Origin: Methylococcales symbiont of Hymedesmia sp. n. MRB-2018
GTDB lineage: Bacteria > Pseudomonadota > Gammaproteobacteria > Methylococcales > Methylomonadaceae
Direction: 5' to 3'
Assembly: GCA_003666385.1 (NCBI GenBank)
Contig: QPIN01000061.1
Span: 1-64,000, forward strand
Length of the DNA stretch: 64,000 nucleotides
Shown: positions 33,876-35,819 of the stretch, one piece after another
Layout: every line of letters begins with the position of its first letter
Numbering within the stretch: the first letter of the stretch is position 1
Notes under the pieces: generated by a model
The model's database searches: none
What the model saw: only the letters and a program-made list of their open reading frames with translations
What the model was told of the DNA's origin: nothing
Translations under genes and position numbers: made by a program

Positions 33876-34772
33876 TTATACGAGTTGCTGAGCTTCAATA
33901 AAAGCTTCTCTAAAGTCAAGATATACAGGTTTGTCTGTCTCCAAAATACGCTTTAATAATTTGTGCTGTACTTTGTATTTAATATTACCAACGGCTAGTG
34001 CACCTATTCCTAATGCACCTTTTGAACCTTTTAATGGTGTTCCTGAATCTTTTGTAGCGATCCCTTCAATACCTGATGGGGGGACAGCGTTAACATCACC
34101 TGCTACTTTAAGTTGTTTGGCTTGACCAAGCACTTCTGTGCTGATCACTTGAATACTTGCTTTAGCAGCACAGAAAATGATGTCCACATCTTCTAATAAA
34201 GCTATTTTTTCTTCATCAGAACCTGCTAAAGCACCTGATAAAGTACATTTACAGCGACGATTATATTCTTTAGCGGCATCATTAGCTGCATCGTATGAGA
34301 TATGATCGACTAACTGTGTATCTGTACCTGCCAGTGAAGCAATAACGCCTGTAGCAATACCAACTGGACCGGTACCACCAAATACGGCTGCTTTACAATC
34401 TTTTAGTTTTTTATTATGCTTTTCTTTTAGTTCTTTTTCTACGCTGGCAACCAATGCTGCTGCCGTTGTAAAGGCACCGCTTGGATCAGCTAGGACTGAT
34501 ACCTCAAAAGGTGGAACCATGGCTTGTTTAGCACTATTCATCATATCCATTGCCAAGCCAATATCTCTACCACCGATAAAAATACCCGTGCGTTTAATAC
34601 CAGCAGGGCTACGCGAAAAAATGGTATCTTGGGTGAGGGCATGAACACTGTCTAACTTTACGTTGCTATAAGGCATTAATATATCAAAGTTTTGATCCAA
34701 TGCCATGTTGATATCAAATGGACTATTGTTTGGCATGGGGTCAAACATGTGAAGAATACTGCGCTTGATCAT
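33876..34772 (-). CDS. mtdB: Methylene-tetrahydromethanopterin dehydrogenase, MtdB-like
   Basis: 298 residues. The opening SILHMFDPMPNNSPFDINMA and FSRSPAGIKRTGIFIGGRD are close to MtdB as I recall it. The NAD(P) fold has AAVFGGTGPVGIATGVIAS near 130, and VNAVPPSGIEG lies near 235. It oxidises methylene-H4MPT to methenyl-H4MPT in formaldehyde oxidation. The residues after the second beta strand (LVDHISYDAANDA) lack the Arg and Lys expected to bind the 2'-phosphate of NADP, so NAD or dual use is likely. It lies 10 bases after a paralogue, convergent with metZ. Confidence 0.88.
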   Translation of the reverse strand: MIKRSILHMFDPMPNNSPFDINMALDQNFDILMPYSNVKLDSVHALTQDTIFSRSPAGIKRTGIFIGGRDIGLAMDMMNSAKQAMVPPFEVSVLADPSGAFTTAAALVASVEKELKEKHNKKLKDCKAAVFGGTGPVGIATGVIASLAGTDTQLVDHISYDAANDAAKEYNRRCKCTLSGALAGSDEEKIALLEDVDIIFCAAKASIQVISTEVLGQAKQLKVAGDVNAVPPSGIEGIATKDSGTPLKGSKGALGIGALAVGNIKYKVQHKLLKRILETDKPVYLDFREAFIEAQQLV

Positions 34773-34782
34773 TGTATATTCC

Positions 34783-35691
34783 TTATTTAGCTGATTTTAC
34801 TATTTCACGAGCGACTTCGAAGGCATGTTCAAAATGTAAGTAAAGGGGTTTGTCACTATCGATCATATTTTTCAATAAACGATTTTGTGTTTGATATTTA
34901 ATGTTACCGATAGCCAATGCACCGACACCTACAGCACCACTTGGACTATTGGCAAATTTCTTGCCATTATCAAAAGGGTCAAGACCCGCAACACCTGAAG
35001 GTGGAATAGCATTAACATCGGCCACCACTTTAAGTTGTGAGGCCGAGGCTATGTGCTCACTGTTGAGTAATTCGATACCAGCAGCACCTGTTGAAAAAAC
35101 CACATCGGCTGTTTTAATTAATTCCGCTATATCATTATTTGTGGCTGTTTTAATGGCAATTTGTCCATCAGCAAATTCATCGTTACACAGTTCAGCAATT
35201 CGTTCTGCTTTATCTAATTGTCTACCAATAATTTTTACATTAGCACCCACTTGCGCAGCTAGAACGCTGGCTGCTTGACCTACCGGACCCGTGCCTCCCA
35301 ATGCTAGCAGGTTTTTACCTTTAAGCGTTGTATTGAATTTATCTTTTAGTTCTTTTTCTACGGCGGTTACCATGCTCGCTGCGGTAGTAAAGGCACCACT
35401 AGGGTCTGCAAAAACAGAAACTTCAAAGGGAGGAAGCATGGTGTTTTTTGCTGTTTTAAGCATATCCATAGCTTGTTTGGTATCTCTACCACCAATAAAT
35501 ATGCCTGTTTTTTGCAAGCCTTTTGGACTACGAGAAAAGATAACATCTTGAACCAAACCTTTCGTTTCACTCGGTTCAACGTTGATATAGGGTATGGCTG
35601 AAACCCAGCCAGCATCAACAGCCATATTGACATCAAATGGACTCAAGTTTTTTGCGGTGGTTAGCAAGTGTAGAATGTAAGGTTGTTCCAT
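34783..35691 (-). CDS. Methylene-tetrahydromethanopterin dehydrogenase paralogue (MtdB/MtdA family)
   Basis: 302 residues from ATG 35691; a GTG-type longer frame adds 11 unconserved residues. It shares the family frame: NLSPFDVNMAVDAGWVSAIP, FSRSPKGLQKTGIFIGGRD, LLALGGTGPVGQAASVLAAQ and VNAIPPSGVAG. After the second strand it reads IIGRQLDKAERIAEL, like the GRKLDKAQ segment that binds NADP phosphate in MtdA of Methylorubrum. So this copy is probably NADP-specific. By eye about half of the positions agree with the downstream copy. It is first in the two-gene unit and divergent from the isocitrate dehydrogenase gene. Confidence 0.85.
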   Translation of the reverse strand: MEQPYILHLLTTAKNLSPFDVNMAVDAGWVSAIPYINVEPSETKGLVQDVIFSRSPKGLQKTGIFIGGRDTKQAMDMLKTAKNTMLPPFEVSVFADPSGAFTTAASMVTAVEKELKDKFNTTLKGKNLLALGGTGPVGQAASVLAAQVGANVKIIGRQLDKAERIAELCNDEFADGQIAIKTATNNDIAELIKTADVVFSTGAAGIELLNSEHIASASQLKVVADVNAIPPSGVAGLDPFDNGKKFANSPSGAVGVGALAIGNIKYQTQNRLLKNMIDSDKPLYLHFEHAFEVAREIVKSAK

Positions 35692-35819
35692 GTTTTTCTC
35701 TATCTTTAAAGTACCAACCCGCAATTATAGAATATTTATTCCTATGATTACACTGTATCCAGCAAAAAATAGTTAAAATGTGTATTATTTGTAGCCTAAT
35801 TAATTTGGAGAACTAGAAA

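Follow-up and report, generated by a model that had tools for sequence, protein, structure and literature searches.

Paired MtdB-type dehydrogenase genes of Methylococcales carry opposite cofactor-site motifs and probably encode NADP- and NAD-linked isozymes

The structurally solved methylene-H4MPT dehydrogenase MtdA is NADP linked and also acts on folate. Another NADP-linked enzyme, MtdC, was reportedly described by Vorholt et al. in 2005 as doing the job of MtdB; MtdC is closer to MtdA. MtdB of Methylorubrum (Methylobacterium) extorquens has been described, in a passage of PMC3227643, as using either cofactor. Isozymes that split the cofactors of one reaction are a known phenomenon, and the presence of two mtdB genes in Methylocaldum is already in print, where a section of PMC10974252 lists them as redundancy. 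In the open-license literature, as far as its text was available, we saw no mention of a cofactor split between paired mtdB genes; subscription papers, which contain the bulk of MtdB and MtdC biochemistry, fell outside this scope, and prior notice there is possible. What is new here is an order-wide MtdB pair that comes with a sharp prediction.

We analyzed a stretch of 64,000 nucleotides (the window) from a genome of 2.22 Mb and 99.1% completeness, where it lies on contig C33. Based on the presence of a pmoA/amoA-family gene, mch, and genes of the Mpt_N family (PF09176), the source is most likely a methane oxidizer with the H4MPT pathway. The genome contains three PF09176 genes, namely, an adjacent pair in the window and an MtdA-like gene on another contig, where it adjoins a glyA-like open reading frame (named by sequence reading, without a family search). 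The upstream member of the pair, copy 1, occupies 34783..35691 on the minus strand (302 amino acids; ATG at 35691), and copy 2 occupies 33876..34772 on the same strand (298 amino acids). The two proteins are 45% identical over 299 columns. The intergenic gap from the copy 1 stop to the copy 2 ATG is 10 nt (34773..34782, minus strand), which is consistent with a single transcript, and both the gene order and this short spacing suggest that the genes probably form one operon. Copy 1 is separated by 128 nt (35692..35819) from a divergent isocitrate-dehydrogenase-like gene, and this interval likely contains the promoter of the pair. Consensus scanning for promoters and terminators at the locus was uninformative, with signal near the level of shuffled sequence. 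No further H4MPT genes were recognized beside the pair in the window, a point against the reading favored below.

Mpt_N exceeded the Pfam cutoff of 27 bits in each copy (124.2 and 117.5 bits), and an NCBIfam search returned no Mtd-specific match. In a tree of 95 rows, computed without the motif columns, a branch with 100/100 support parted 92 MtdB-side rows from 3 MtdA rows, and the MtdA clade excluded both copies. An earlier note on this DNA had placed both proteins in the MtdB family from their N termini, and this assignment held; their activity with H4MPT as methylene-H4MPT dehydrogenases is what their MtdB-type membership predicts. We then compared the window genome and 60 relatives from its order, of which 53 of 61 carry a PF09176 gene. 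In 51 of the 53 Mtd-bearing genomes (the window genome and 50 that were fetched), the two copies sit next to each other on the same strand, with copy 1 always first. The remaining two Mtd-bearing genomes, for which no pair is listed, are G026, which has one MtdA-type gene, and G038; of these, only G026 was fetched.

In the AlphaFold models of both copies (pLDDT, 91.6 for copy 1 and 94.9 for copy 2), β2 of the nucleotide domain comprises residues 151 to 156, and the motif begins at the tip of this strand. As the earlier note had pointed out, copy 1 carries the MtdA-like segment GRQLDKAE here (residues 156 to 163; 35203..35226, minus strand, calculated from residue numbers), so that Gly156-Arg157-Gln-Leu-Asp-Lys161 faces GRKLDKAQ of the solved, NADP-linked MtdA in the alignment. 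The corresponding segment of copy 2 is DHISYDAA (residues 156 to 163; 34284..34307, minus strand, likewise calculated), in which Asp156, followed by His157, is the final residue of β2. Across the order, Gly-Arg was found in 50/50 copy 1 proteins and Asp at the β2 tip in 53/53 copy 2 proteins (48 Asp-His and 5 Asp-Pro), a contrast beyond chance. A Lys or Arg at the fourth position after the Arg (Arg+4) occurs in 50/50 copy 1 proteins, which have no acid at the β2 tip and thus an NADP-type site. The same basic residue is present in 13/13 GR-type proteins of other Gammaproteobacteria and in 26 of the 27 MtdA-type rows. No copy 2 protein (0/53) has a basic residue within the six-residue stretch, and all 53 show the NAD-type Rossmann signature, an Asp or Glu at the β2 tip. 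Four alphaproteobacterial MtdB rows have Gly-His (three rows) or Gly-Tyr (one row) at this place. The five copy 2 proteins with Asp-Pro instead of Asp-His (L071, L078, L080, L082, and L084) all come from one family, f4. The sole MtdA-type protein without a basic Arg+4 residue is the MtdA-like protein of the window genome (L003:1438-2313, G000:C2), with the motif SRQLTS.

According to a portion of PMC4777477, an acid at the β2 tip contacts the two hydroxyls of the adenosine ribose, as seen in 145 of 155 NAD Rossmann structures; the acid excludes NADP and, as described there, has to be lost before NADP can be used. The same rule is given in part of a review (PMC5817062). Based on the Asp at its β2 tip and these established structure rules, copy 2 is predicted to be NAD linked and poor with NADP, and copy 1 bears the marks of an NADP enzyme, as judged from sequence. 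This agrees with the split in likely cofactor use that the earlier note had suggested. We conclude that the pair probably comprises two isozymes of one step, one NADP linked and the other NAD linked, encoded in one probable operon, with separate supply of NADPH and NADH. Both copies would serve the conversion of methylene-H4MPT to methenyl-H4MPT within formaldehyde oxidation. Copy 1 would transfer the hydride to NADP+, with Arg157 and Lys161, just past β2, predicted to clamp the 2'-phosphate as in MtdA; copy 2 would transfer it to NAD+, with Asp156 predicted to hold the two free ribose hydroxyls and repel the 2'-phosphate. The same C1 intermediate could then supply biosynthesis with NADPH and respiration with NADH, and the cell could choose the carrier. 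We infer in this way the cofactor preference, activity with H4MPT, co-transcription, and physiological role of the pair.

A rather unlikely alternative is that only copy 2 is specialized, for NAD, and that copy 1 uses both cofactors, making the pair a generalist and an NAD specialist. The described use of NAD or NADP by M. extorquens MtdB (PMC3227643, in part), together with the Gly-His of its relative L094, indicates that neither the basic nor the acidic residue is needed for activity in the family, so copy 1 could also be dual; it lacks the β2 acid, as NADP use requires under the rule above. However, both MtdA-type clamp residues are present in every one of the 50 copy 1 proteins, and L094 has no Arg at the site.

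Only 8 of 309 columns were diagnostic for the two copies, i.e., at least 90% fixed for differing residues in each copy, with no overlap between the leading residues. Columns 156 and 157 are both among these, and because the earlier note had named them in advance, they do not represent a post hoc choice. The other six lie away from the β2 tip, e.g., at Ala203/Lys204 and, within the N-terminal half, at residues 11 and 29, as would fit copies that differ mainly in substrate or regulation, whether by use of methylene-H4F, formation of a mixed oligomer, or different timing. We regard this as quite improbable, given that no known cofactor positions are more direct than the two adjacent β2 columns and that a folate enzyme is already present in the form of the MtdA-like gene (FolD was not detected over the cutoff in the window genome). 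The MtdA-like gene is likely a second NADP enzyme of this genome, which counts against the favored reading of an NADP- and NAD-linked pair. Residue 204 of copy 2 (34161-34163), located after β4, is Lys in 50 of 53 copy 2 proteins and Ala in 50/50 copy 1 proteins.

For a broader view, we sampled 370 genomes of the class, 49 of which had a match, and took 60 stretches from among the class-level matches, including two from genomes in the order of the window. Outside the order, two matches within ∼2 kbp of each other were found in only three genomes (L201, L204, and L213), each combining an Asp-type with an MtdA-type gene, and within both samples the tandem of a GR-type and an Asp-type gene was found only in the window's order. 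Before the counts were made, two short G014 rows were left out, and removal of rows that were >92% identical took the set from 287 to 219; the set was cut to 144 rows by removing 28 listed loci (nearly all alphaproteobacterial, one of them a repeat of a copy 1 row) and genomes outside a list of 23, and then, for the tree, to 95 by taking out rows with long branches, the majority of the MtdA rows, and additional rows from Methylococcales. Analyzed together with MtdA and MtdB, the copies fall into separate, well-supported clades rather than a single tight one, which the earlier note had named as part of a refuting result. Copy 1 of the order forms one clade (99/98), nested with the 13 GR-type proteins of other Gammaproteobacteria (94/99), and copy 2 of the order forms another (99/93), nested in an Asp clade (100/100) to which one further gammaproteobacterial family contributes three proteins. 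Support is only moderate (83/94 and 88/81) for the deeper branches by which the Asp clade connects with MtdB of Alphaproteobacteria.

A recent tandem duplication private to the order was rejected, as a tree joining the order's two copies alone had a p-AU of 2e-58; a tree in which the complete GR and Asp clades are sisters was not rejected (p-AU, 0.075). The copies derive from two older subfamilies that are now held together. In one respect, this result corrects the framing of the earlier note: the split between the copies did not follow a tandem duplication at this locus. We consider it extremely improbable that the genes do the same job twice for gene dosage. A section on redundant C1 pathways in PMC10974252 does list two mtdB genes per Methylocaldum strain, but dosage would not account for opposite cofactor-site residues being fixed in 51 genomes or for two clades remaining separate. 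Both copies are under purifying selection in the nine of ten comparisons with five congeners that were computable, with dN/dS values of 0.05 to 0.17 for copy 1 and 0.05 to 0.12 for copy 2 (four pairs; dS was saturated in one).

Several genomes carry further members of the family. G009 has a second adjacent pair (L088:619-2555) that belongs to a third subfamily with CQL(L/V)ADDD at the β2 tip, single relatives of which occur in other Gammaproteobacteria (L239, L241, and L249). G046 has two extra Asp-type copies (L085 and L086) apart from its pair. Among the 52 stretches compared, the pair has no fixed neighbor; recurrent neighbors are genes for 5-formyl-H4F cyclo-ligase (14 stretches), an isocitrate-dehydrogenase-like protein (14), and a carboxynorspermidine-decarboxylase-like protein (15). 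A gene with a RibD_C reductase domain adjoins the pair in 8 of the 52 (e.g., L070:6491-7345) and might have a role in pterin synthesis.

PntB, a subunit of the proton-driven transhydrogenase, was matched in 55 of the 61 genomes, including that of the window, and exceeded the cutoff in 54. A separate NADPH source is therefore not strictly needed in most of these genomes, and the pair is not the sole route. Because the copies would share a substrate couple, electrons could pass between the NADP and NAD pools through methylene- and methenyl-H4MPT, and the pair may also act as a two-piece soluble transhydrogenase that needs no membrane enzyme, with one copy running forward, the other backward, and the H4MPT pool serving as a redox hub. 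We consider this additional role unlikely; if true, it could account for the lasting adjacency of the two genes. The soluble transhydrogenase SthA was over the cutoff in 0 of 53 Mtd-bearing genomes; of the 8 genomes lacking Mtd, 5 exceeded it, all of them from genus g35. This single-lineage contrast fits such a role weakly.

The supply of NADPH and its balance with NADH in methane oxidizers that use the RuMP cycle bear on metabolic modeling and on methane-fed biotechnology. In one model of this kind, as described in part of PMC4658805, free interconversion of NADH and NADPH is allowed on the grounds that a transhydrogenase is expressed. If the favored assignment of NADP to copy 1 and NAD to copy 2 is correct, the order-wide pair would be a direct and genetically accessible control point. 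It predicts that the two purified enzymes will have opposite preferences, switchable through residues 156, 157, and 161.

Both copies share family, length, and predicted reaction with MtdB of M. extorquens. The near-identical relative of that enzyme from Methylorubrum, L094, is 43% identical to copy 1 and 45% identical to copy 2, and unlike both it has Gly-His at the β2 tip. The two mtdB genes of each Methylocaldum strain belong to separate orthogroups, and the relevant passage of PMC10974252 gives no cofactor difference between them. MtdA (1lu9, 1lua, 6tlk, and 6tge) has the same fold as both copies (TM score of 0.89 between the copy 1 model and 1lu9; Z score of 40.4 and root mean square deviation of 1.6 over 287 residues for the copy 2 model) and has Gly-Arg-x3-Lys in common with copy 1. 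It nevertheless forms a separate clade (100/100), with 33 to 34% identity to copy 1 and 29% to copy 2. Copy 1 lies on the MtdB side, while MtdC is closer to MtdA. A parallel in cofactor use is M. extorquens, in which MtdA and MtdB likewise provide one organism with methylene-H4MPT dehydrogenases of differing cofactor use (NADP and NAD(P), respectively); those enzymes are distant relatives rather than an adjacent MtdB pair.
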